52,792 nt of DNA, taken from positions 1 through 52,792 of the forward strand of contig CAIKKY010000026.1 in assembly GCA_903828145.1 (NCBI GenBank). The letters are read 5' to 3'. The position numbers and the translations under genes are program-made. Origin of the DNA: an uncultured Hyphomicrobiales bacterium (lineage in GTDB: Bacteria > Pseudomonadota > Alphaproteobacteria > Rhizobiales > Devosiaceae). The notes beneath the pieces were generated by a model. The model was not told where the DNA came from and did no database searches. It saw only the letters and a program-made list of their open reading frames with translations. Shown piece by piece: positions 9,078-22,644 of the stretch; positions within the stretch are counted from its first letter, which is position 1, and each line of letters opens with the position of its first letter.

Positions 9078-9151
9078 TGGAGCGGGTGAAGGGAATCGAA
9101 CCCTCGTATTCAGCTTGGAAGGCTGCTGCTCTACCATTGAGCTACACCCGC
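9078..9151 (-). tRNA. tRNA-Gly (anticodon TCC)
   Basis: On the minus strand the acceptor GCGGGTG pairs with CACCCGC, the anticodon loop is CTTCCAA, the T-loop is GGTTCGATTCC, and CCA is encoded. Upstream, TTGCGC and TAAAAG 16 bases apart may serve as its promoter. Confidence 0.97.
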
Positions 9152-9267: not shown

Positions 9268-10059
9268 CTAGGGCGCATAAAAGCCCAATGCCGCGCGAAC
9301 CAGCACCAGCAGGATGGAGAGATTGCCGCGCACGGCACTGATTTTCGTCGGCACTTCCCCTTTGGGATAGCGGCGCGCTGTGGGCAGCTCGACACAGCGG
9401 AAGCCAAGCCGTGGCGCGCACGCCGACAGATAGGCCAAAAGCTCATAGCCCGAAAACACGGCGCGAAACGGCGCGACCCGTTGATCGCGCAGCAGTCGGG
9501 CACTGTAAGCGCGAAATCCTTGCGTCGTGTCCGTCCAGTGAAAGCCCGACGCAAGGCTCAGGATCGGGGCATGCACGAACCGAATCGCCAGATCGCGGGC
9601 GGGCGGCGTGTTTTCGGCCTCGCCCCCGGGCAGGAAGCGCGAGGCCTGCACAAAGTCCACGCCCGCTTCCAGCGCCGCAATGAACTGCGGGATGGCGCCC
9701 GGATCGTCTTTGTCGTTGCCATCGATGGTAATGATCCCGTCATAGCCTTCGGCCAGCGCCACCGCGTAGGCAACGCGCAACTGCGCCGAAAGCCGGCCTG
9801 CCCCGGTTTTGATGAGGACACCCCTCACGCCCTTGGGCTCGACGCTCTGGCGATCGACCGATCCATCGCCGGTTCCCCCATCGACGATGAGAATGTCGAT
9901 CGTCTCGTGCAGCTTCAGCGCGGCCATACGCGCCAGCAAGCGGGCCAGTCGCTCACCCTCGTTCAACACCGGAATGACGACGACAAAGCGATGCCGACGT
10001 CCGGTGAAAAACTGTGGTTCAAAGGTCGGAACAACCCAGTCCTGCGGAAAACCGGTCAT
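9268..10059 (-). CDS. Family 2 glycosyltransferase (dolichyl-phosphate-sugar synthase-like)
   Basis: This 263-residue GT-A glycosyltransferase probably transfers a sugar from a nucleotide donor to a polyprenyl phosphate or glycolipid at the inner membrane face. The N-terminal strand FVVVIPVLNEGERL (about 25-38), the Asp-rich metal site TIDGNDKDDP (111-120) and TDTTQGFRAYSARLL (176-190) resemble DPM1-type enzymes. There is no C-terminal membrane segment. The start at 10059 overlaps the preceding stop codon by four bases (ATGA). A longer reading to 10287 would run through that gene and has no support. It is the last gene of the glycan cassette, and the sugar is unknown. Confidence 0.85.
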   Translation of the reverse strand: MTGFPQDWVVPTFEPQFFTGRRHRFVVVIPVLNEGERLARLLARMAALKLHETIDILIVDGGTGDGSVDRQSVEPKGVRGVLIKTGAGRLSAQLRVAYAVALAEGYDGIITIDGNDKDDPGAIPQFIAALEAGVDFVQASRFLPGGEAENTPPARDLAIRFVHAPILSLASGFHWTDTTQGFRAYSARLLRDQRVAPFRAVFSGYELLAYLSACAPRLGFRCVELPTARRYPKGEVPTKISAVRGNLSILLVLVRAALGFYAP

Positions 10060-10415
10060 GCGACTTTCACCGAAATCAAAGCCACACCAACGATCACCGC
10101 CAGAAATCCGAGCAGCGTCGTCGCCGAAAAACTCTCCTTGAAAATGAGAGCTGATGCGACGGCGACGGCCGCCACGGCACCCGATGTCAGGATCGGATGG
10201 GCGACATTCAGCGGCAGGTGCTGCAAGGCGACGGCGTAGAGCAGGAAGGCCAATCCATAGAGGGCAAGACCGGCAAGAAGTGGCCAATTGGCCAGTGTGG
10301 CCAGGGGATCAGACGGCAAAAAGACCTGCCGGGGCGGCGTAACGGCCAGCTTGATGAGAACACTCGCCGAGGCGTTGGCGAGAATGCCCAAAATCAGAAC
10401 GGTCCACTTGAGCAC
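10056..10415 (-). CDS. SMR/EamA-like four-helix membrane protein
   Basis: This 119-residue, almost wholly hydrophobic protein has four predicted membrane spans (about 3-22, 42-62, 70-90, 97-117). Its size and layout resemble the small multidrug resistance/EamA group, including ArnE/ArnF-type subunits that move lipid-linked sugars across the inner membrane. The start is GTG 10415, immediately after the TGA of the preceding gene, and the end overlaps the next gene by four bases. Given its GT neighbours, a role in flipping a lipid-linked sugar is my inference. Such proteins act as dimers. Confidence 0.75.
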   Translation of the reverse strand: MLKWTVLILGILANASASVLIKLAVTPPRQVFLPSDPLATLANWPLLAGLALYGLAFLLYAVALQHLPLNVAHPILTSGAVAAVAVASALIFKESFSATTLLGFLAVIVGVALISVKVA

Positions 10416-11234
10416 TCAACGGCTCCCTTCATAATGGATTTTCGCAAACGCCAGGGCCCGCGCCAGCGCCGCAAGGCCCGGTGTTGCGGGCGTCGCCATT
10501 TCGAGCGTGGCAACACTGCGAGGATGCAAAGCGCCCAGTATCCGGCCCAGCTGCGCATGCTCCACCCCGCCGGTACCGGTTTCGACCAGATCGGGCTCGC
10601 TGATGTGAATGTGCCCCACAAGCGGCGCGACCTCAGTCAGAACCGCCTCCGGGTCCTCCTCGGCAATCATCAGGGCACCCGTATCGATCTGCAGCCGAAT
10701 CGCCTTGTGCCCGACCAGACGCACAACACGCGCTGCCTCCAGCGTGGTCACCATGAAGTTGGAGCCGTAGCGGGGCGGGTTGGCCTCAAGACAGAACACG
10801 ACCCCTTCACGCGCGCCGATTTCGCCCAACCGCCAGAAAAATTCGGTGGCGATGACATGGGCCTCGTGGTCGGCAAGGCCCGTGCGGTCGCGATTGCGGG
10901 GCGAGCCAAAGGTGAGCCGAGTTGCGCCCAACACAGCCCCAACACGCGCAATCGCAGCCAGATGGTCAAGCATCGCCCGTTGCACCTCGGCTGGCCCGAA
11001 CAGGTTCAAACCGCTGGTGCCATAGAGCAGCGACTGCATGCCCGTGATGTCAACGCCGCGACTGGCCCATTGCGCGCGAACCTCTTTAATATCGGCATCG
11101 CTTGCCCTCGGAAGGTCGGCGAAATATTTGCTCGGCGCAACATCGATGGCGTCGATGCCCTGCTGGCTGAGGATCAGGCCGACGGCGGCATCATCGGCCG
11201 TGGTCCAGGCGAGATTGGAGATCGCAAGGCGCAT
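10416..11234 (-). CDS. Sugar phosphate isomerase/epimerase-like TIM-barrel protein
   Basis: This 272-residue protein is of the xylose isomerase-like TIM-barrel superfamily. The start MRLAISNLAWTTADDAAVG and the barrel strands GVVFCLEANPPRYGSNFMVT, IRLQIDTGALMIAEED and PLVGHIHISEPDLVETGTGG have the spaced Glu, Asp and His residues that bind the divalent metal in this superfamily. Substrates of relatives range from sugar phosphates to keto-inositols, so the reaction cannot be named. It lies two bases after the epimerase gene and directly before the SMR-like gene, so it probably tailors the sugar that this operon transfers. Confidence 0.8.
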   Translation of the reverse strand: MRLAISNLAWTTADDAAVGLILSQQGIDAIDVAPSKYFADLPRASDADIKEVRAQWASRGVDITGMQSLLYGTSGLNLFGPAEVQRAMLDHLAAIARVGAVLGATRLTFGSPRNRDRTGLADHEAHVIATEFFWRLGEIGAREGVVFCLEANPPRYGSNFMVTTLEAARVVRLVGHKAIRLQIDTGALMIAEEDPEAVLTEVAPLVGHIHISEPDLVETGTGGVEHAQLGRILGALHPRSVATLEMATPATPGLAALARALAFAKIHYEGSR

Positions 11235-11236
11235 GA

Positions 11237-12010
11237 TCAGGGCTCTTGCGGTTCAGATTGCGCATAGGCGCGAATGGCCATCAGCGTTTCGCGCCGCGCG
11301 TACTGATAGGTCCCCTCCCCGCCAAACAGCGACGCGTGCCGGGTACGAAAGTCATAACGCGCCACAGTGCCGGTCGTGTTGGCAAAGCTGCGCCCAAAGC
11401 CATGCTGGGCCACGTCGGCCACGCTGATCGGTTCAGCAGTGAGGTGCACAAGCGAGAGGTTCGCCTTGAGTGCCGTTGTGATGTCGGACCAGAGATTGAC
11501 CATCGGGTAAAACTGAAACACCCCCCGGTGATCGATGGCATCGAGGTTGTTGTTGTGCTGGAAATCATAAAGCACGTTCTTCCTAAGGCCGGGCCCTACC
11601 AGACCCGGCAAGCGCACCACCAGGGGCTGCGGCGCCCAATCGGTCACAAAGCGTTCAAGCCGCCGCCGGTTTAGCCCATAGGGCTGCAGTCCGGCCTCAT
11701 GAACCGGGGTCTCTTCGTCAACGGCGATGGGCGAGGAAAAAACGTCCACAGTGCTGATGAGGACGACGCGCCGGGCCGAGACGGTCTGCAACTGCGCCAT
11801 CAGCCCCTCAATCCGCGCCCGGTCCGCCTCCGGCTCCCGATTGGCGAGCCATTTCTGGGCCGGAGCCCCCGCAATCACGAGGAGGTCGAAACTCTGCCCC
11901 CGGATCGACGCAATATCCGTTGACCGAAACTGCGCCTCAAACTGCGTCTGCTTCTTGAGGGTCGTGCCAACAAAGCCCGAGTGACCAACAAGGCCTTGCC
12001 GCGCGCTCAT
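11237..12010 (-). CDS. NAD-dependent sugar epimerase/reductase-like protein
   Basis: This 257-residue extended-SDR protein begins with a Rossmann motif GLVGHSGFVG (residues 6-15, GxxGxxG). STVDVF (86-91) is the usual active-site strand. The catalytic YxxxK appears as Y111-GLN-R115, so Lys is replaced by Arg, which is unusual and may mean altered chemistry. The substrate region includes RLPGLVGPGL. The ATG at 12010 overlaps the stop codon of the upstream membrane-protein gene by four bases. It is shorter than many nucleotide-sugar epimerases (about 310-340 residues). Its likely role is modification of the sugar made by this cassette. Confidence 0.75.
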   Translation of the reverse strand: MSARQGLVGHSGFVGTTLKKQTQFEAQFRSTDIASIRGQSFDLLVIAGAPAQKWLANREPEADRARIEGLMAQLQTVSARRVVLISTVDVFSSPIAVDEETPVHEAGLQPYGLNRRRLERFVTDWAPQPLVVRLPGLVGPGLRKNVLYDFQHNNNLDAIDHRGVFQFYPMVNLWSDITTALKANLSLVHLTAEPISVADVAQHGFGRSFANTTGTVARYDFRTRHASLFGGEGTYQYARRETLMAIRAYAQSEPQEP

Positions 12011-13569
12011 TGTGTATCCCACCGCGCGTCAACCGCGCGCTGCGCGAAGGTCGCAAAAATACGTTTGCCGACGTTCAGCAGTATATCCAGCGTCGCCGGG
12101 ATGAACCCGAGGTACCACAGCACGAAGTTAAGGTGCACATGGACGGCCGAGTGGGACTTGGCGAGGACGAACCACGACAGGGGCGGCAGGATGAAGCTGA
12201 TCCAGAGCGCAAGATCGCGCCGGGGCGATCGCCCCTGAAAGACCGCGAGAACAAGCGGCAACACAAGTGAGCCCAAAACAAGGTGGGGGAATACTCCAGC
12301 ACCCCCTATCAGGCCCCAAACAACATCAGTCCGCCAATCCATGAAGTAGGTTAACAGCACCGTCCATACTGTTTGCTCGGCACCAGCAAAAGGTTGGCCT
12401 GTCGCTGCATTGATCGTTCCGTAGGTGCGCGCCATGACGTTGGTTTCGAGGATTGATTTCACACCATCGAGAAGAGTGTCTCCGCGTATGCCGGCGTGAA
12501 TGAGCAAGGCGGTTGCGAAACCGAGTACCCCTGTAAGGCCGACAGTTAAAACACCGCCCATTGCACGCCGGCGGTCCCCGCCCGTGCTCGTGAACCATCC
12601 ATAAACAAAGGGCGCGGCGGCAAAGAGCATCAGGGCAGACTGGTATTCGTAACCACTCAGGCACTTGACCGTGAAAGCCAGGTACGCCCCGACCCACAAA
12701 AGCCGCCGAGACCAGGGCGCTTCGGCTCGCAGCGTCAAGGCCGCGAAAATTGCAGGCAGCAACCAGATGAAACACATCCAGTAAAGACTATGCACAAAGG
12801 AGGTCAGCCAGGGCGACAGGATGGCCGCGCCCACGAAAAGAACGCCGAATTGCAGGGAAAAAATGCGCCTGTAGAGTAAACCAAGGCAAAGCAGACAGGC
12901 CGAAAATGCTGCTGAATTCAAAGCCGTCAGCGCACCCAGACTATGCCCAAACAGCGGAAACAGCGCCGACCACACGACACCCTGCAGTCCCCATTGCGAG
13001 AGATAGGAATCGAACTGCAGATCAGAAGTCGGGGTGACACGCCCGGAAACCGTAACGGGAAGAACGCCAGCGGGACTGTTAAGCACAGGGCCGTCAAGAA
13101 AGAGCGTGACGTAGTTGCCAGACTCGGTCGCTCCAAGGACGTACCGCGTCTTGCCGCCAACCGATACCGTCCGCCCGATGTAACGTTCTATGCCGTCGGT
13201 GTGATGAAGGAGCACGGCAGCCACCGCACGGGAGACACCGTAACTCCAGTCTGCATCAGTCCGGTCAGCGGTCTCAGTAACGATATCCGGAAGTGGGCGC
13301 TGCTGTAGAAGGGCATATCCTTGATCCATCCAAATCGGATCAATCCCGGTACCGCCCACCGTTGCAGGTGCTAAATTTGCCTTCTTGGGCAAAACAACGC
13401 CGCGTTCTTTCGCAATTATCGCACCGACTACAAGCGATTCCGAATACCGCTGCACTGTGCTAAAGCATTGGTCTTCCGCAATACCGACTGGGTTAAGCCA
13501 ATAGTTGAGCGTGACCAGCGCGAACAAGACGAGCCACCCCGCCCGCGTTCTAGTGAATAGCTTCCGCAT
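12007..13569 (-). CDS. Polytopic membrane protein, GT-C-like, unknown function
   Basis: This 520-residue integral membrane protein has one N-terminal span (about 8-26), a roughly 140-residue extracytoplasmic region with DPIWMDQGYALLQ and a beta-rich part, then about ten further spans. The shape (early loop, many spans, short polar loops) resembles GT-C glycosyltransferases and lipid-A/O-antigen membrane enzymes, but I recognise no family motif. The start at 13569 is the first ATG giving a hydrophobic N-terminus. It overlaps the FAD gene by 20 bases and the epimerase gene by four. Its base composition looks less GC-rich than that of neighbouring housekeeping genes, a hint of separate ancestry. 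Confidence 0.65.
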   Translation of the reverse strand: MRKLFTRTRAGWLVLFALVTLNYWLNPVGIAEDQCFSTVQRYSESLVVGAIIAKERGVVLPKKANLAPATVGGTGIDPIWMDQGYALLQQRPLPDIVTETADRTDADWSYGVSRAVAAVLLHHTDGIERYIGRTVSVGGKTRYVLGATESGNYVTLFLDGPVLNSPAGVLPVTVSGRVTPTSDLQFDSYLSQWGLQGVVWSALFPLFGHSLGALTALNSAAFSACLLCLGLLYRRIFSLQFGVLFVGAAILSPWLTSFVHSLYWMCFIWLLPAIFAALTLRAEAPWSRRLLWVGAYLAFTVKCLSGYEYQSALMLFAAAPFVYGWFTSTGGDRRRAMGGVLTVGLTGVLGFATALLIHAGIRGDTLLDGVKSILETNVMARTYGTINAATGQPFAGAEQTVWTVLLTYFMDWRTDVVWGLIGGAGVFPHLVLGSLVLPLVLAVFQGRSPRRDLALWISFILPPLSWFVLAKSHSAVHVHLNFVLWYLGFIPATLDILLNVGKRIFATFAQRAVDARWDTQ

Positions 13570-14668
13570 CGAGCCGCTCCAGGATGTCGTAAACATTATC
13601 GATTTTGCCACCGAGCACCGCATAGGCGCCGGGCAGGCGGTCAAGCTTTTCGAACAGAATGGGCCGACCATCGTCGCCTTCGTTCTTTTCGAGCACCGTC
13701 TTGATTTCAAAGAGCGACGAGTCCGCGCGCGCCGAGGCCAGCGCGGGCACATAGCGCGCCGCATCGCGCAGCATCCGGTCCACCCGCGTTGCCGGGCCCG
13801 GGCTCTGCAGCAGGGCCCGAAGATCGACCGAAGGGTCATCGGCCAAGGCCCGGTGCGGCGTGTACCGCACATGAGACAAGGTATGCAGCTGCCGCGCCGG
13901 AAACGGCATGAGCGAGAAAAACGGGCCGTCCATCAAGGTAATGCCCAGGCCCTTCAGTCTGGAGTCTGGCTCAACAAGTGCCATTTCGGTGAGTTCATGC
14001 TTCAGCCGCGCTTGCGTGCCCCCGGCCTGTCCGAACAGGCGGTTGAGCCCGGCATAGGTGCAGTTGAAAACATAGCGTGCACCAGCAACGCTGCGCGCAC
14101 CGTCTGGACCGCTCAACGCTAAGCGCAGCGCTACGCCGTCCCCCTTGTCGATTGACGTCGCTTCCGTTGCGAGTGCGACCTCCACCCCGGCAAGTCGCAG
14201 CGCATTCTCCGCCCAAATCGCGAGCTGGCGCGTGTCAAAAGCATATTCAGCAACTTCGTACACGGCTTCGACCAGATCGGGGCTGAACAGCGCCTGTAAT
14301 TCCTTCCGTGCCGTCTGGAATGGAGCCCCAATTTCGGCGGCAAAACGTTCGAATTGCCGCGCATTCACCTTGGAATTGCGTCGCGCAACCGCATAAAGCG
14401 CCGTGAAGTCACGGACAATCGCCCCCGGCCAATCAGTAACAAAGCGGGGCAGATTTATACGGCTGCGGTAGGCCGTCGTGAAGCTGCGCGGATAGTGGTA
14501 GCCATTATGGACCCGCGCCTGATTGGTGTAGGACGCACGGCGCATGAGCGCTGCTTCCCGTTCGACCAGCAGCACCCGTCTCAGCCCGCGATTGACGCTG
14601 AGGTGTCGAGCAATGACCGCGCCATAGAACCCGCCACCGACCACCACGGCATCAAATGGTTCCGTCAC
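13550..14668 (-). CDS. FAD-dependent oxidoreductase (DAO fold)
   Basis: This 372-residue protein has an N-terminal FAD-binding Rossmann motif FDAVVVGGGFYGAVIARHLS (about residues 5-24) and VLLVEREAALMRRASYTNQA, the second dinucleotide element of the D-amino-acid oxidase/glycerol-3-phosphate dehydrogenase fold. It starts at GTG 14668, overlapping the upstream GT2 stop by four bases (GTGA). Its position among glycosyltransferases and sugar-tailoring enzymes suggests it oxidises a sugar, cyclitol or lipid-linked sugar alcohol rather than an amino acid. This is inference and the electron acceptor is unknown. Confidence 0.8.
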   Translation of the reverse strand: MTEPFDAVVVGGGFYGAVIARHLSVNRGLRRVLLVEREAALMRRASYTNQARVHNGYHYPRSFTTAYRSRINLPRFVTDWPGAIVRDFTALYAVARRNSKVNARQFERFAAEIGAPFQTARKELQALFSPDLVEAVYEVAEYAFDTRQLAIWAENALRLAGVEVALATEATSIDKGDGVALRLALSGPDGARSVAGARYVFNCTYAGLNRLFGQAGGTQARLKHELTEMALVEPDSRLKGLGITLMDGPFFSLMPFPARQLHTLSHVRYTPHRALADDPSVDLRALLQSPGPATRVDRMLRDAARYVPALASARADSSLFEIKTVLEKNEGDDGRPILFEKLDRLPGAYAVLGGKIDNVYDILERLDAEAIH

Positions 14669-15687
14669 TCAGCGGCGCCTTTCAGCCGATGCACTACCGC
14701 ACCATCAGCCGCAGGTTCTTCGATATTGAGCCGTTCGCGGCGCGTCAGCGTTGCGCTCGTGAACTCCTGGCTGACATGGTAGAGCGGGCCGTCATTGGAC
14801 AGGCTGGCCATCGACAGCATGTATTCGCCCAACACAAACAGCACGAGCGAGATGAGAAAAAACATCCCCGACTGCTGCAGGCTCAGGCTGACCCACCCCG
14901 GCGCCACATCGTCAACCCACAGGGCGACCGCAACCACATAGACGGTGTAGAGCAGGTTTGCGGCCGCGCCGAAGAGCGTAAGGGCTGTGACCACGCGCAT
15001 CGGCCCACGGGTTGTCGAGAACAACAGCCGCAAGCCCCTGTCGATGGCGTCGCCGAGGTTGTCGGTCCGCACCGCTTTGGGCACTGCGCTATACTCAAGA
15101 TACGCCCGGGCAAAGCCGCCGGTTGCCGGCAGGTGCCGATAGGTCAGCACAGGCTGACGATGCTGAAGAATGAAGTTCACCACCCGCCGCGCAATCAGCC
15201 GGAACTTCGGCGCCTCGCGTCCGAGATCGACACCGGCAAACCGAGAATACAGGCGATGAAAAGCGCGCTCGCCAACCCGATAGGACCAGCGTGCTTTCGG
15301 ACGCGCGGCGTTGGCGGCAAACACAACATCGGCGCCCTGCCCCGCCCGATCCAGCATCTGCCGGATGAACGCCGGATCGTCGCTCAGCGGATCCAGCACC
15401 GCCACATAATCGCCGAGCGCATTTTCGAGACCAACCCAGTTTGCAGTGTCGCCATCCACTTCTTTAGTGAGGGCAAAGACCTGCAGATTGGGCAAACCGG
15501 CGGGTCCTGCAAGCCGGCGCAACTCGGCGACGGACTCATCGACAGAGGCGTTATCAACAATGATCAGCTCAAAGTCGGCAACCATGGTCCGCAGCGTAGC
15601 AACGGTTTCGGTCAGCAGCGTTTCGAGGCGCTCCCGCTCGTTGCGCAGGACACAGACAACCGACAGGAAGACGGGGAACGCCAACAT
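14665..15687 (-). CDS. Family 2 glycosyltransferase with C-terminal membrane spans
   Basis: This 340-residue GT2 protein has the N-terminal strand FPVFLSVVCVLRNERERL, DFELIIVDNASVDESVAE, and a metal-site region with AVLDPLSDDP in place of a clean DxD. Two hydrophobic segments near the C-terminus (about 235-258 and 270-290) anchor it in the membrane, as in undecaprenyl-phosphate sugar transferases of the ArnC/GtrB type. I choose ATG 15687 over the adjacent GTG 15690 because GAGGG lies five bases upstream. It is the first gene of the overlapping seven-gene run. A 191-base gap separates it from the DUF2142 gene. Confidence 0.8.
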   Translation of the reverse strand: MLAFPVFLSVVCVLRNERERLETLLTETVATLRTMVADFELIIVDNASVDESVAELRRLAGPAGLPNLQVFALTKEVDGDTANWVGLENALGDYVAVLDPLSDDPAFIRQMLDRAGQGADVVFAANAARPKARWSYRVGERAFHRLYSRFAGVDLGREAPKFRLIARRVVNFILQHRQPVLTYRHLPATGGFARAYLEYSAVPKAVRTDNLGDAIDRGLRLLFSTTRGPMRVVTALTLFGAAANLLYTVYVVAVALWVDDVAPGWVSLSLQQSGMFFLISLVLFVLGEYMLSMASLSNDGPLYHVSQEFTSATLTRRERLNIEEPAADGAVVHRLKGAAE

Positions 15688-15878: not shown

Positions 15879-17306
15879 CTATCCTGAAATGTAGTACCGC
15901 CAAACCAGAGCCCGAACAGTGATGGCAATGCTTAAAACCGGCCACGCCATCTGAGCTGCGGCGAGGACACGGCCGGTGACGAGCCCGATCCGCGACCGGT
16001 GCAGGTTAGACGTCTGGTCGGCCAACAAGACAAAAATACTGAGCAAGGGCAGGAAATACCGCCCCTGTACGCCTTCGACGATGCCATGGCCCACGGGCGT
16101 CCAGGTCATGTAGAGCGCGCCAAAAATCAACCCAAAACTGAGGGTTAACGCCCCAAAAGCTGAAAGAGGACCGCCAAACTGGCGGGCGCGAAACAGCCCG
16201 ACGAGTCCGATAACAACCGGGACCAGTGATGCGGCAAGCAGCACCAGTGTTGCTCCGACGAAAAGTTTCGGGAGCGGCGTATCCAGCCAACCCAGATTAC
16301 CCACCATTGAAGAAAGATAAAATCCCCACCGCAAAGACAGTGTATCCCAGGCAATGCTGAAAACCTTGAGAGGGTCAGCTCGCAGCAACGACAGTTGCGC
16401 GGAAGGATCGGCCAGCGAGTTGAGTGCCCCTGCCCCGAACGAGAGAACAAGTAAGTTCCACAACGCTGTCGCCCCAAGGGGCACCGCCGTAGCCACATAT
16501 TTGCCCCATCCGCTGTTGGAGCTGAACCCTGCAATCAGCAGCGCCAACAGGGCATAGGGCATTTTTCCCATGCCGATGATGCTGGCGAGCACGGCGAGCC
16601 CAATTAGCTCACTGACCCGCAGCGGGCGTTTCTCTCTGAACGCGGATGAGATCATCGCCACGAACAGCATGCTGAGGGCAATCAGCAAGCCATCCTGCGT
16701 CACATGGGCTGATAAAGAGGCCGCCATCGGCAGCAACAGCACCGTGACGGCCAGGCCGCGCCCCGCCGACAACCGTTTAAGCGCGGCCCACCCAATCAGG
16801 AAACAAAGCAGCGCATTAACAATGCGCGCCAATCTCAGACTATCAAACACCGAGAGGTTGAGCCATTTACCGACACCAATCGCCAAAGCTGAGGGCGCGT
16901 ACAACGTGGGCGCGTAAATAGATGTCGCAGTGAGGTTAGCCTCTGTTTGCAAGCCGGACCAACCAATGGCCCGCTCCTTCGACAGACGCTCTCCAGTCGC
17001 CTTTTCGGCATAAACAAACGGCATGCCTGCATATATTGCCGAGATTTCATTGATGCCATTGTCAACTGGCCCAGCAAATCCGCCCCCCGGCACAGGCTTT
17101 CCGAAAATCGCGCCATTGGTGAGCGCATCGGCCCGGGAGGTATGCAGGGGCTCATCGGCCCCTTGGAAAGTCGGCAGAAACAGAATCAGGAGCAGTGCAA
17201 ACAGCGGCAGATAGAGCGTATAGGCAGCCAGAAGCATTCCGCCGTCCGGTTTATGACTGTTATGCGCCGAATCCACTGAGTAGAATAAAGATGCTACATC
17301 CCTCAT
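15879..17306 (-). CDS. DUF2142-like polytopic membrane protein
   Basis: This 475-residue integral membrane protein has about 11-12 hydrophobic spans. The first periplasmic loop begins FQGADEPLHTSRADAL, matching the DEP(A/L)H signature that opens DUF2142 proteins and resembling the acidic motif of GT-C enzymes. PVGHGIVEGVQGRYFLPLLS near residue 420 is also typical. The ATG at 17306 has a strong GGAGGGG site. An upstream start at 17339 lacks one. Members sit in polysaccharide and lipid-linked glycan loci, but the reaction is not established. It is probably the first gene of the minus-strand glycan locus. Confidence 0.75.
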   Translation of the reverse strand: MRDVASLFYSVDSAHNSHKPDGGMLLAAYTLYLPLFALLLILFLPTFQGADEPLHTSRADALTNGAIFGKPVPGGGFAGPVDNGINEISAIYAGMPFVYAEKATGERLSKERAIGWSGLQTEANLTATSIYAPTLYAPSALAIGVGKWLNLSVFDSLRLARIVNALLCFLIGWAALKRLSAGRGLAVTVLLLPMAASLSAHVTQDGLLIALSMLFVAMISSAFREKRPLRVSELIGLAVLASIIGMGKMPYALLALLIAGFSSNSGWGKYVATAVPLGATALWNLLVLSFGAGALNSLADPSAQLSLLRADPLKVFSIAWDTLSLRWGFYLSSMVGNLGWLDTPLPKLFVGATLVLLAASLVPVVIGLVGLFRARQFGGPLSAFGALTLSFGLIFGALYMTWTPVGHGIVEGVQGRYFLPLLSIFVLLADQTSNLHRSRIGLVTGRVLAAAQMAWPVLSIAITVRALVWRYYISG

Positions 17307-17605: not shown

Positions 17606-17690
17606 TGGTGGAGGGGACTGGATTCGAACCAGTGAACGCTAAGCGACCAGATTTACAGTCTGGCGGATTTAACCACTCTCCCACCCCTCC
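17606..17690 (-). tRNA. tRNA-Tyr (anticodon GTA)
   Basis: This is a class II tRNA with a long variable arm. Acceptor GGAGGGG pairs with CCCCTCC, the anticodon loop is CTGTAAA, the T-loop is GGTTCGAATCC, and CCA is encoded, for 85 bases in total. Confidence 0.97.
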
Positions 17691-20194: not shown

Positions 20195-20932
20195 ATGTTG
20201 AGCATCGTCATTCCAGCACGCAATGAGGCGCTGGCGCTCGGCCCGCTGATTGCCGAAATCGAGCGCGCACTGGTCGATTTCACCGGCTTCGAAATCATTG
20301 TGGTCGACGATGGCTCAACCGATGCCACGGAGGCAGCGGTGCTCGCCTCCCCCTCCCTGCGCGTCCGCTATATCCGGCACCCGCTCCCCGGCGGCCAGAG
20401 TGCCGCCATTCATTCCGGCGTGCGGGCGGCGCGCCATAGCCTCATCTGCACGCTCGATGGCGACGGTCAGAACCCGCCGGACGCCCTGCCCCAGATCATT
20501 GCGCCGCTTCTTGCCGATCAGGCCGGGGTCGTCGGCCTTGTCGCGGGCCAGCGGGTAGGACGGCATGATACCGTGAACCGTCGGCTGGCCTCGGGCCTTG
20601 CCAATTGGCTTCGCCGTCTGCTGCTGCGCGATGGCACGCGCGATACCGGCTGCGGGCTTAAGGTGTTCCGGCGCGAGGCCTTTCTCGATCTCCCCTATTT
20701 CAACCACATGCACCGCTATCTGCCCGCACTGTTCCTCCGCGATGGCTGGCAGGTGCTGCATGTCGACGTACCGCACCGGCCGCGCCTGTCGGGGCGCACG
20801 CATTACTCCAATCTGCAGCGCGCCCTGGTCGGGGCCGTCGATCTTTGCGGTGTCCTTTGGCTCATCAGGCGCCGGAAAAAGGTCCGACCCGCCCCGGCAG
20901 CCGGCCTTCGCGATGGCTCGGGCCATGGCTGA
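20195..20932 (+). CDS. Family 2 glycosyltransferase, polyprenyl-phosphate sugar synthase-like (RgtE-like)
   Basis: This 245-residue GT2 protein begins directly with the catalytic fold: MLSIVIPARNEALALGPLIA, then EIIVVDDGSTDATEAAVLAS, the DxD metal site CTLDGDGQNPPDAL, and GTRDTGCGLKVFRREAF. It has no membrane spans. It matches dolichol-phosphate mannose synthase-like enzymes that load a sugar onto a polyprenyl phosphate. It overlaps a LAB_N-domain gene, and a GT83 transferase follows. In Rhizobium the same kinds of protein (RgtE, RgtF, RgtA-D) make dodecaprenyl-phosphate galacturonate and move it to lipopolysaccharide. The sugar used here is not known. Confidence 0.85.
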   Translation: MLSIVIPARNEALALGPLIAEIERALVDFTGFEIIVVDDGSTDATEAAVLASPSLRVRYIRHPLPGGQSAAIHSGVRAARHSLICTLDGDGQNPPDALPQIIAPLLADQAGVVGLVAGQRVGRHDTVNRRLASGLANWLRRLLLRDGTRDTGCGLKVFRREAFLDLPYFNHMHRYLPALFLRDGWQVLHVDVPHRPRLSGRTHYSNLQRALVGAVDLCGVLWLIRRRKKVRPAPAAGLRDGSGHG

Positions 20933-21227
20933 ACTCCTCCGCCTCTTTCATGTCGACAGCACGGCTGAACTGCTCTGGATCGGCATCGGCCTTTGCGGTC
21001 AAATCCTGTTTGCCGGCCGGTTTATTGTGCAATGGATCGCCTCAGAAAAAGAGCGTAAGTCGCACATCCCCCTTGCTTTTTGGTACTTTTCGCTCGCCGG
21101 GGGTATCGTCTTGACGCTCTATGCCATCTACCGGCGCGACCCGGTCTTCCTCCTTGGTCAGGGGCTCGGCCTCCTGATCTATGTCCGCAACCTGTGGCTG
21201 ATCCGCAATGAGCGCAGAACCGACTGA
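20925..21227 (+). CDS. Lipid-A-disaccharide synthase N-terminal-like (LAB_N) membrane protein, RgtF-like
   Basis: This small membrane protein of about 100 residues has three hydrophobic spans and the LAB_N hallmark: GIGLCGQILFAGRF, then VQWIASEKERKSHIP, FWYFSLAGGIVLTLYAI and GLLIYVRNLWLIRN. The start may be ATG 20925 or ATG 20913. Both overlap the GT2 gene, so coupling is likely. The family is found fused to or beside GT2 enzymes that make polyprenyl-phosphate sugars, and RgtF of Rhizobium has that role. It overlaps the next gene by 20 bases. The exact biochemical activity is not established. Confidence 0.85.
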   Translation: MAELLRLFHVDSTAELLWIGIGLCGQILFAGRFIVQWIASEKERKSHIPLAFWYFSLAGGIVLTLYAIYRRDPVFLLGQGLGLLIYVRNLWLIRNERRTD

Positions 21228-22644
21228 GCGCTGGGCGCGTCCGGTACTTTATGCACTCGTCGGCTTGACCCTGCTGCGGGTCGCCGCGCTGGCGCTGAGC
21301 CCCACCGATCTCTTTGTCGATGAAGCCCAGTATTGGCTCTGGTCGCAAACGCTGGCGTGGGGCTACTTTTCCAAACCGCCGCTGATTGCCTTTGTCATCC
21401 GGCTGACCACCAGCCTAGTGCAGACTGACAGCACCATGGCCATCAGGCTCGCTGGCCCGTTTGCGCATTTGGCGACAGCCTTGATCCTCGGGCGCCTCGC
21501 CTACCGGATAGCCGACAGGCGGGCTGCGCTCTGGGCGGCGCTCACCTATCTGACCCTGCCCTCGTGCAGCCTGGGCAGCTTCGTGCTGTCCACCGATACG
21601 GTCATGGCCCCTTTTTATGCCCTTGCGCTCCTCGGCCTTGTTGAGATGGGCATGACGCGCCGCCTGGGGCCCGCGCTCTGGGGCGGGCTCGCGCTCGGAT
21701 TGGCTCTGCTTGCGAAATATGCGGCGCTCTATCTGCCGGGCAGCGCGCTGGTGGCGCTGCTCGTTAAAAAGCAGGCGCGCTCGCCTCTTCGGCTGTGGCT
21801 CATCTTCTTCAGTACGGCGCTCATTATTCTGAGCCCCAATATCCTGTGGAACCTTTCGCATGACCTCACCACAGTGCGGCACACCGCCGGCAATGTCGGC
21901 TGGGTCCAGCACCTGACCTTTGCCCCCTCTCTCACCGCCGGCCTGAAATTTCTCGCCGGTCAGGGGCTGATGGTCGGGCCCATCCTTGTTTGTGGCTTAG
22001 GGGCCTCACTCTGGCGCGGCGCGCTGCACGGCGCCCGATCGCTGCTCATTGCGCTCGCGCTCATCCCGCTTGGGCTGGTCACCCTGCAGGCGCTGATTGC
22101 GGGGGCCAACCTCAACTGGGCCTTTGCCGCGTGGCTGCCAGGGCTGGTGCTCGCTGTCATCGCGCTGCAGAACGGGCCCTGGCTCAAGATCAACCTGGTC
22201 CTCAACGGGGCGGTCAGCCTCGCCTTCATCGGCCTCACCCTGTTTCCCTACACCGCGCTGCCGAACCAGCAGCCCCTGCTGATGCGACTTCTCGGCCGAG
22301 CCGACCTGAGCGAGCAAATCCTGGACATGGCCGAAGCCAAAGGCCATATCCCCATCGTGACCGGCAACCGCGATATTCTGGCGGACCTTGTCTATACCAG
22401 CCGAACCCGGCCTGTACCGCTCTATGCCCAACAGCGACAGGGCCGACCGCTCACACATTACGAGCTGGCTTTCGCCCTGCCGACAGGGCTTATCGGCCCG
22501 GTGATCTTCGTTTCCCCCATCGTGCCGGACTGCCCAGGCGGCCCCGCGCCGCTGGCGCAGCCCCTCAATACCGATATCGGCGCCTATGCCAACCAGCGGT
22601 TGTTTGCCGTGTTCACCCGGGCCGAATGCCTGCCGCAACTCTGA
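21208..22644 (+). CDS. GT83/PMT-family membrane glycosyltransferase (ArnT/Rgt-like)
   Basis: This 478-residue GT-C enzyme has a first periplasmic loop carrying LFVDEAQYWLWSQTLAWGYF and SKPPL, the acidic motif and downstream signature of the ArnT/RgtA-D group. These use polyprenyl-phosphate sugars to modify lipid A or LPS core in the periplasm. About ten membrane spans precede a C-terminal periplasmic domain of about 130 residues that begins near NQQPLLMRLLGRADLSEQIL. The start at 21208 overlaps the LAB_N stop by 20 bases. Together with the two preceding genes it forms a complete load-and-transfer module. The acceptor is inferred to be an outer-membrane lipid. Confidence 0.85.
   Translation: MSAEPTERWARPVLYALVGLTLLRVAALALSPTDLFVDEAQYWLWSQTLAWGYFSKPPLIAFVIRLTTSLVQTDSTMAIRLAGPFAHLATALILGRLAYRIADRRAALWAALTYLTLPSCSLGSFVLSTDTVMAPFYALALLGLVEMGMTRRLGPALWGGLALGLALLAKYAALYLPGSALVALLVKKQARSPLRLWLIFFSTALIILSPNILWNLSHDLTTVRHTAGNVGWVQHLTFAPSLTAGLKFLAGQGLMVGPILVCGLGASLWRGALHGARSLLIALALIPLGLVTLQALIAGANLNWAFAAWLPGLVLAVIALQNGPWLKINLVLNGAVSLAFIGLTLFPYTALPNQQPLLMRLLGRADLSEQILDMAEAKGHIPIVTGNRDILADLVYTSRTRPVPLYAQQRQGRPLTHYELAFALPTGLIGPVIFVSPIVPDCPGGPAPLAQPLNTDIGAYANQRLFAVFTRAECLPQL

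Follow-up and report, generated by a model that had tools for sequence, protein, structure and literature searches.

A conserved mobile gene module with features of a Gtr-type glycosylation system and a putative sugar-remodelling line

In the YcjS-YcjR-YcjQ scheme of E. coli a sugar is oxidised, a barrel enzyme of the AP_endonuc_2 type epimerises the carbon beside the resulting ketone and the ketone is reduced, by which glucosides and gulosides are interconverted. The roles of YcjQ, YcjR and YcjS are treated in PMC11543891, and in the Gtr model, as given in PMC3688519, GtrA and GtrB are conserved and GtrC is variable. Remodelling and flipping of a sugar linked to undecaprenyl phosphate (undP) have been described together for pentofuranose systems, and in that study (Kelly et al. 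2024, PMC11127046) the authors state that they were unaware of other epimerases in O-polysaccharide side-chain systems. Here we have analysed a 52,792-nucleotide stretch of DNA of an uncultured Hyphomicrobiales bacterium (contig CAIKKY010000026.1, referred to as the window), in which seven minus-strand genes at 9268-15687, named GT2a, FAD, MEM, EPI, TIM, SMR and GT2b in their 5' to 3' order, had been regarded in an initial annotation as a system for a lipid-linked sugar. We propose, with a probability of roughly 55%, that they encode a mobile extracytoplasmic glycosylation system of the Gtr type with a built-in sugar-remodelling line, where the sugar, the acceptor and the order of the steps are what we infer.

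The seven genes belong to a real, conserved and mobile module. All seven open reading frames (ORFs) are open and, as the initial annotation described, they are joined by overlaps of 4-20 bases (4 at GT2a/FAD, 20 at FAD/MEM, 4 at MEM/EPI with the EPI start at ATG 12010, 4 at SMR/GT2b) or by gaps of at most two (2 bases at EPI/TIM, 0 at TIM/SMR). A collection of 84,980 species was scanned with a 14-sequence FAD profile, by which at least 565 loci with a FAD relative were obtained; the best 80 of them, top scorers and not a random sample, were kept and checked for the remaining module, and from their titles we take them to be Beta- or Gammaproteobacteria. The six core genes were complete in 63 of these 80 loci, the same 63 being recovered on a recount with other profiles, and 56 of the 80 keep exactly the order of the window, GT2a-FAD-EPI-TIM-SMR-GT2b, thus the neighbourhood is more than chance. 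An accidental gathering of independent genes is ruled out by the 63 loci which hold all six together, and co-occurrence elsewhere, on which the initial annotation had made its proposal depend, was confirmed. FAD was present in all 80 by construction, GT2a in 79, EPI in 72, TIM in 71, and SMR and GT2b in 67 each, where the genes of the fetched loci are simple longest-ORF calls by which some genes are missed or misplaced. Contig ends truncate eight of the 17 incomplete loci (4.6-14.7 kb), and the other nine comprise five with an aldo-keto reductase (AKR) variant, two without GT2b and two without SMR; EPI stands without TIM only on one 6.7-kb contig (L113).

Among the relatives of the host the module is rare. 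With TIM as query no close copy was found in 100 relatives, the neighbourhoods being viewed to about 1.5 kb and FAD and EPI not being searched in the genus; 41 other genomes gave a match at E 0.001, the best with 70 bits and 29% identity. A module typical of the window's own relatives was therefore rejected. Of 289 genomes sampled from the class, eight were matched by FAD (one weakly, 44 bits) and seven by EPI, the host genome counted in both, and in four other genomes the two lie at most 3 kb apart. One genome of the same taxonomic order (G525) has a MEM homologue together with FAD, GT2a, EPI, TIM and GT2b; the carriers include many Beta- and Gammaproteobacteria, plasmids and two phage loci, and a survey confined to Hyphomicrobiales would mislead. 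The FAD protein tree (41 rows) is poorly resolved and leaves 24 of its 38 internal branches open; by path, the window FAD has five Beta- or Gammaproteobacterial rows as its nearest, and since the place of the window in this tree is unsupported, no donor is claimed. In the window 8454 bp separate the tRNA-Tyr and tRNA-Gly genes which enclose the module and a neighbouring DUF2142 gene, whereas in five same-genus loci the two tRNA genes are 28, 77, 99, 142 and 600 bp apart, thus relative to these five the interval is extra DNA. The other 13 of the 18 loci scanned were uninformative since the fetched stretch did not hold both tRNA genes. The genes for tRNA-Trp, nusG and rpoB are near the interval.

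Plasmids and phages carry the module as well. FAD was found on 12 plasmid records, seven of which were read. Five of these, from Rhodobacterales and Sphingomonas, have the order EPI-TIM-GT2a-FAD-GtrA-GT2b, an Azospirillum plasmid EPI-TIM-GT2b-FAD-GT2a, and a Psychrobacter plasmid EPI-TIM-SMR-FAD-(GT2a-GT2b fusion)-membrane protein. On this last one, pA22P4 (10,782 bp), the only further genes annotated, in a gene table that is incomplete, are two for mobilisation and two for replication; the module is its only annotated cargo, and this self-sufficiency speaks for the proposed system. On the E. coli plasmid pCUPF09A (L214, 10879-18138) the module, in which GT2a is annotated with a frameshift, lies behind genes for tape measure, tail X, late control D and lysozyme; a hypothetical protein of 758 aa and a fragment of an integrase come next. 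In the viral contig L134 genes for tail sheath, tape measure and further tail proteins precede the module, beyond which a multi-spanning gene and a repressor lie on the opposite strand. We take the phage genes of both to be P2-like from their names, and the position of the module is, by analogy, that of lysogenic-conversion or serotype-conversion genes.

L134 is the only one with the full module among the best 80 of 172 viral contigs. EPI was found in three others (L135, L137, L139), TIM also in L135, and 76 of the 80 have none of EPI, TIM and GT2b beside the FAD relative; FAD alone does not mark the module, since the distant viral relatives mostly stand alone. These relatives (L135-L213, IMG/VR contigs) have 23-35% identity, and L135, with FAD, EPI and TIM together, comes from a 386-kb contig. 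A phage collection gave a single match, a 4-kb record covering half of FAD.

Both family 2 glycosyltransferase (GT2) proteins match Glycos_transf_2 (PF00535; 1.2e-13 for GT2a, 7.3e-10 for GT2b), and both had been considered as loaders of polyprenyl phosphate. The profile match of GT2a runs along GtrB (5eke/5ekp, E 1.9e-28) and ArnC, including the C-terminal membrane part, where hydropathy gives two hydrophobic segments, at 235 and 266. The catalytic DxD by which the GtrB-family GT2 of a Gtr-type system is defined was found in none of 73 gene-called copies of GT2a, the second Asp being missing in all. In the copies of three Rhodobacterales plasmids (L048, L052, L053) the nucleotide-binding and DxD regions are eroded, the motif being lost entirely, and the C-terminal membrane part is kept, and on the Psychrobacter plasmid GT2a and GT2b form a single ORF of 592 aa. 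Because of this fusion and the retained membrane part, GT2a is probably a catalytically silent membrane partner or platform for GT2b, a role which can be likened to that of DPM3 for DPM1. GT2b matches dolichol-phosphate mannose synthase (DPMS; 5mlz, E 4e-13), has 56 invariant columns in 24 sequences and has no membrane hairpin, only one borderline hydrophobic stretch at its very C-terminus; judged from these features it is the likely loading enzyme, the catalytic subunit which would charge polyprenyl phosphate. Two equivalent loaders, as initially assumed, are not supported by this division of roles.

The three tailoring enzymes fit an oxidation, an epimerisation and a reduction. FAD, for which a DAO fold and not a DprE1 fold had been recognised, indeed matches DAO (PF01266, 2.3e-21), and its closest solved relatives by sequence are glycerophosphate oxidase 4x9m (5e-9) and 3dme (6e-7). 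It has 39 invariant columns in 14 sequences, among them N49, Q50, A51, R52, H54, G56, H58, Y59, P60 and R61 of a strongly conserved motif around residues 45-61, and it is proposed to oxidise a sugar hydroxyl to a ketone. DprE1 has the VAO fold; a DprE1-like enzyme was rejected on the DAO match, no VAO-type FAD-binding family being present among the other five Pfam matches.

TIM matches AP_endonuc_2 (PF01261, 1.9e-19) and, by profile, D-psicose and D-tagatose 3-epimerases (about 1e-12) and the 3-keto-D-glucoside 4-epimerase 6wn6 (2e-8). The Glu-Asp-His-Glu tetrad of the D-psicose/D-tagatose 3-epimerase superfamily is present as E150, D184, H210 and E245 in 71 of 71 rows, the window included, aligned to E, D, H and E of 7cj4, which we take to be metal ligands; TIM is proposed to be a metal-dependent keto-sugar epimerase. 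The enzyme could alternatively act on a free ketose or cyclitol, the product of which (e.g. psicofuranose, tagatofuranose or an inositol derivative) would then be placed on the lipid, as its closeness to D-psicose, D-tagatose and 5-keto-L-gluconate epimerases and its weak match to a myo-inosose dehydratase model (0.032) might suggest. This would leave the regular FAD and short-chain dehydrogenase/reductase (SDR) partners unexplained; moreover, the cluster for bradyrhizose, an inositol-fused sugar, differs, having eleven genes with a dTDP-glucose dehydratase and, in the portion of text available, no oxidoreductase, isomerase or epimerase (PMC4743980), so that identity of the module with that cluster was rejected on gene content. 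We consider the ketose or cyclitol route highly improbable.

EPI is below the cut-off of the Pfam Epimerase family (0.0057), and its AlphaFold model (pLDDT 91) has RmlD 1vl0 (3e-10), RMD and GalE as nearest folds. The N-terminal GxxGxxG and the Rossmann fold of an extended SDR are present, and G9, G12, G15, S86, Y111 and R115 are invariant in 47 sequences. In place of the catalytic YxxxK of extended SDRs the YxxxR already pointed out in the initial annotation (Y111, R115) was found in 62 of 62 gene-called copies. Judged from the modelled fold EPI is more likely a ketone reductase than the NAD-dependent epimerase it had been called, and epimerisation would fall to TIM.

The exchange of parts between loci is consistent with this order of reactions. 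In five loci of about 9-13 kb (L068, L094, L095, L097, L103) another GT2, an AKR and GtrA come after GT2a-FAD and replace EPI, TIM, SMR and GT2b (in L095, PF00248 at 4e-18 and PF04138 at 5e-23), and AKR occurs together with EPI or TIM in none of the best 80 loci. Such an exclusion would be expected if oxidation is the task of FAD, reduction that of EPI or AKR and epimerisation, in between, that of TIM, and the variant is what would be expected if GT2a serves whichever other GT2 is present. The five loci are close to each other in kind and may represent few independent events; the variant is probably a sister system for a different sugar. Another contig (L130, 3868-6735) has behind GT2a-FAD a GT2 of a further kind and, at the contig end, an ORF which by eye resembles AKR, possibly another variant.

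The flippase is also exchanged. SMR has four hydrophobic segments, matches EamA (1.7e-6) and Multi_Drug_Res (2.4e-5) just above the cut-offs and the ArnF model (1.1e-8) below its cut-off. Among the best 80 loci 67 have SMR, five GtrA, none both and eight neither, and GtrA is present in five of the seven plasmid loci read. The four-helix flippase, GtrA or SMR, of Gtr-type systems is thus found in the module, and since GtrA stands in the place of SMR in other copies, the earlier reading of SMR as flippase of the lipid-linked sugar, here proposed from its sequence features, is strengthened.

MEM has eight hydrophobic segments and matched no Pfam family above the cut-off. Its AlphaFold model (pLDDT 66) has GT-C entries (AglB, OST, ArnT, Pmt4) at the top ranks of Foldseek, with a best E of 0.011 and a TM score of about 0.3, and eight homologues share 31 invariant columns, including S43-E44 within a predicted helix (33-55). 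A homologue of MEM is within 7.5 kb in only seven of the best 80 loci; of the 67 loci that hold three or more module genes, 56 had a large membrane protein candidate by hydropathy, a different protein being in the place of MEM. The Pfam scan covered 64 of 71 such candidates, seven near-duplicates having been dropped by eye, and the protein of the window. Among these 65 there were four Acyl_transf_3, two GtrII, one exosortase, one MFS and one Wzy_C, most having none, and of five further membrane proteins three gave PMT_2 matches below its cut-off. In one Ruegeria copy (L053, 11480-13132) an exosortase (XrtD) gene comes after the module, where the transferase candidate stands in other copies. 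The two GtrII matches and the top ranks of Foldseek favour a GT-C type, and MEM is proposed to be the final transferase, as had been suggested; from the earlier claim its candidacy was retained, with a fold match that is weak.

A surface polysaccharide is the probable acceptor. In 48 representatives of 107 recurrent neighbour clusters glycosyltransferase group 1 occurred three times, and Polysacc_synt_2, RgpF, Acyl_transf_3, GT2 and epimerase twice each; unrelated families were also present, and several of the representatives are likely to be false ORFs. Elsewhere in the host genome Wzy_C was matched eight times and Bac_transf twice. A protein, lipid A or another lipid as acceptor, instead of O-antigen or exopolysaccharide, is suggested by the fold matches of MEM, which include protein glycosyltransferases and ArnT, and by the exosortase adjoining the module in Ruegeria; we find it doubtful, since polysaccharide families have the most matches among the recurrent neighbours, an indirect indication of two or three each, and since the phage position is that found in serotype conversion.

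Put together, GT2b, kept at the membrane by GT2a as a GtrB-like pseudo-transferase, would load a common sugar, most likely a hexose such as glucose, on polyprenyl phosphate. At the cytoplasmic face and on the lipid, a ring hydroxyl would be turned into a ketone by FAD, the carbon beside this ketone would be inverted by the metal-dependent TIM and the ketone would be reduced by the RmlD-like EPI, by which a rare sugar with one or two adjacent centres changed relative to the starting sugar could be formed. SMR would flip the lipid-linked sugar, and MEM, as a GT-C type enzyme fitted to the local acceptor, would add it to a glycan of the cell surface, either O-antigen or exopolysaccharide. Loading, remodelling on the carrier, flipping and transfer would be the most economical reading. 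Of the system first suggested, the flippase, the tailoring enzymes and a candidate final transferase are retained, and the two equivalent loaders and EPI as epimerase are not.

Several points weigh against this scheme. The 80 loci are the best-scoring ones and no random sample, and the GC content hardly points to an origin elsewhere (0.611 in the module, 0.607 in the left and 0.631 in the right part, being lower only in MEM and DUF2142, 0.573 each). The activity of GT2b is not certain given DGN instead of DxD in 68 of 69 aligned copies, the remaining one having a gap; the Arg of EPI departs from the usual SDR lysine, which makes its NAD(P) use putative. Neither SMR nor GtrA was found by profile models in the eight loci mentioned, in the Azospirillum locus L047 or in the alphaproteobacterial loci L247-L251. 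The GT-C assignment of MEM leans on a low-confidence model, the counterparts form a mixed set, and in 11 of the 67 loci the hydropathy rule found no large membrane gene. Furthermore, by hydropathy none of FAD, TIM and EPI, whose action on the lipid-linked form is postulated, has a hydrophobic segment.

This feature would also suit a different order, in which the three enzymes first make an unusual nucleotide sugar, or its precursor, in the cytosol, and loading by GT2, flipping by SMR and transfer by MEM follow. The nearest folds of EPI are nucleotide-sugar enzymes, and the order of the steps cannot be read from sequence. Nevertheless, no nucleotidyltransferase is among the seven genes; the closest solved relatives of TIM and FAD act, judging by their entry names, on free sugars, glycosides and polyol phosphates; and GT2a stays beside FAD in the variant without EPI, TIM, SMR and GT2b, which suits a flavoenzyme near the lipid loading. 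We regard synthesis as a nucleotide sugar as rather unlikely, and remodelling on the carrier is preferred.

The coordinates are collected in Table 1. The eighth gene, DUF2142, is on the same strand 191 bp upstream of GT2a, and a homologue of it was close to the module in one of 89 loci (L121, on the opposite strand); it may be a second acceptor-side enzyme, its membership in the operon being uncertain. Promoter and terminator scans of the window gave no more matches than shuffled sequences. Elsewhere in the window (20195-22644, plus strand) a short ORF with a resemblance, by eye, to the LAB_N domain lies between genes for a GT2 (245 aa, PF00535) and a PMT_2 protein (478 aa, PF13231, 1.5e-16); the group resembles a second set for lipid-sugar transfer, perhaps directed at lipid A.

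Table 1. Genes of the module and neighbouring features in the window (aa, amino acids).
Feature	Description	Position	Strand	Basis
GT2a	GtrB/ArnC-like membrane GT2 protein without DxD, 340 aa	14665..15687	-	Pfam, profile match, hydropathy
FAD	DAO-superfamily flavin oxidoreductase, 372 aa	13550..14668	-	PF01266, solved relatives
MEM	Multi-spanning membrane protein, 520 aa	12007..13569	-	Hydropathy, predicted structure
EPI	RmlD-like extended SDR, 257 aa	11237..12010	-	Predicted structure, motifs
TIM	AP_endonuc_2 / xylose-isomerase-like barrel, 272 aa	10416..11234	-	PF01261, metal tetrad
SMR	Small four-segment transporter, 119 aa	10056..10415	-	EamA, Multi_Drug_Res, hydropathy
GT2b	DPMS-like GT2, 263 aa	9268..10059	-	PF00535, DPMS match
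DUF2142	Multi-spanning membrane protein	15879..17306 (or to 17339)	-	PF09913, 1.1e-47
tRNA-Gly (tcc)	One border of the interval	9078..9151	-	ARAGORN
tRNA-Tyr (gta)	Other border of the interval	17606..17690	-	ARAGORN

It is tentatively suggested, at somewhat less than even odds, that the module represents a widespread class of mobile systems, in which an oxidise-epimerise-reduce line on the carrier is combined with a two-subunit loader (GT2b and a dead GtrB platform), which serve phages and plasmids as a surface-conversion cassette, and in which the swap between SDR with TIM and AKR changes the rare sugar. If this is true, epimerisation on the carrier would be extended from pentofuranoses to sugars loaded by GT2 enzymes, a route into surface glycans that needs no nucleotide-sugar pathway could be open to some rare hexoses, and phages and plasmids would possess a portable cassette by which the bacterial coat is altered. 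A rare sugar with one changed centre would be predicted for the AKR type, versus two adjacent centres for the type with SDR and TIM. With at least 565 loci holding a FAD relative, the system might be relevant to many sugars so far unexplained and to variation of the coat in environmental Pseudomonas, Burkholderiales and others.

The gene set was not found described in the open-licence literature as far as its texts were accessible, subscription papers and preprints being outside this scope. The genes might also be imagined as an ordinary part of an O-antigen cluster whose sugar has already been assigned, since each single family is common, public annotations are generic and the search was confined to open-licence papers; the same search gave no description of the set in the texts available, and we hold this explanation to be very unlikely. 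From the YcjS-YcjR-YcjQ system of E. coli the module has in common the scheme of oxidation, epimerisation and reduction, and the 3-keto-D-glucoside 4-epimerase is among the TIM matches. The Ycj genes, in contrast, form a soluble carbohydrate-use operon without glycosyltransferase, flippase or lipid carrier, and the Ycj dehydrogenases belong to another family. With the ArnC/ArnE/ArnF/ArnT pathway of 4-amino-4-deoxy-L-arabinose (L-Ara4N) the module shares a GtrB/ArnC-type GT2, an SMR-like flippase and a putative GT-C transferase; it differs in the tailoring enzymes and scores far under the NCBIfam cut-offs (ArnC 54.5 bits for GT2a and 32.8 for GT2b versus 529, ArnF 35.5 versus 99, ArnE 25.4 versus 92), so that none is an equivalog by this measure.

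In the mycobacterial DprE1/DprE2 arabinose pathway two enzymes likewise invert a sugar carbon on polyprenyl phosphate, and an SMR-type exporter is proposed (PMC11127046); the flavoenzyme of the module is of the DAO type, and the module has in addition a metal-type epimerase and loading by GT2. The pentofuranose systems, as described in the same paper (PMC11127046), are similar in that a lipid-linked sugar is formed and undergoes epimerisation ahead of export, after which it is flipped and passed on by a GT-C enzyme, but they use a polyprenyl phosphoribose synthase with phosphoribosyl pyrophosphate (PRPP) and a MATE flippase, while the module has GT2 proteins, SMR or GtrA, and an epimerase of another superfamily. 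Neither of those two families is represented in the Pfam results for the seven genes or for DUF2142. With the Gtr systems of O-antigen glucosylation (GtrA, GtrB, GtrC) in Shigella and Salmonella prophages the module has in common a polyprenyl-phosphate GT2 protein, a small flippase which in some copies is GtrA itself, a variable membrane transferase candidate and carriage by phages. It differs from them by the addition of FAD, TIM and the SDR, by a GtrB-like protein without DxD beside a separate GT2, and by SMR in place of GtrA in the window. The module can be regarded, from these sequence features, as a putative variant of the three-component glycosylation systems which dispenses with their DxD-bearing GtrB.

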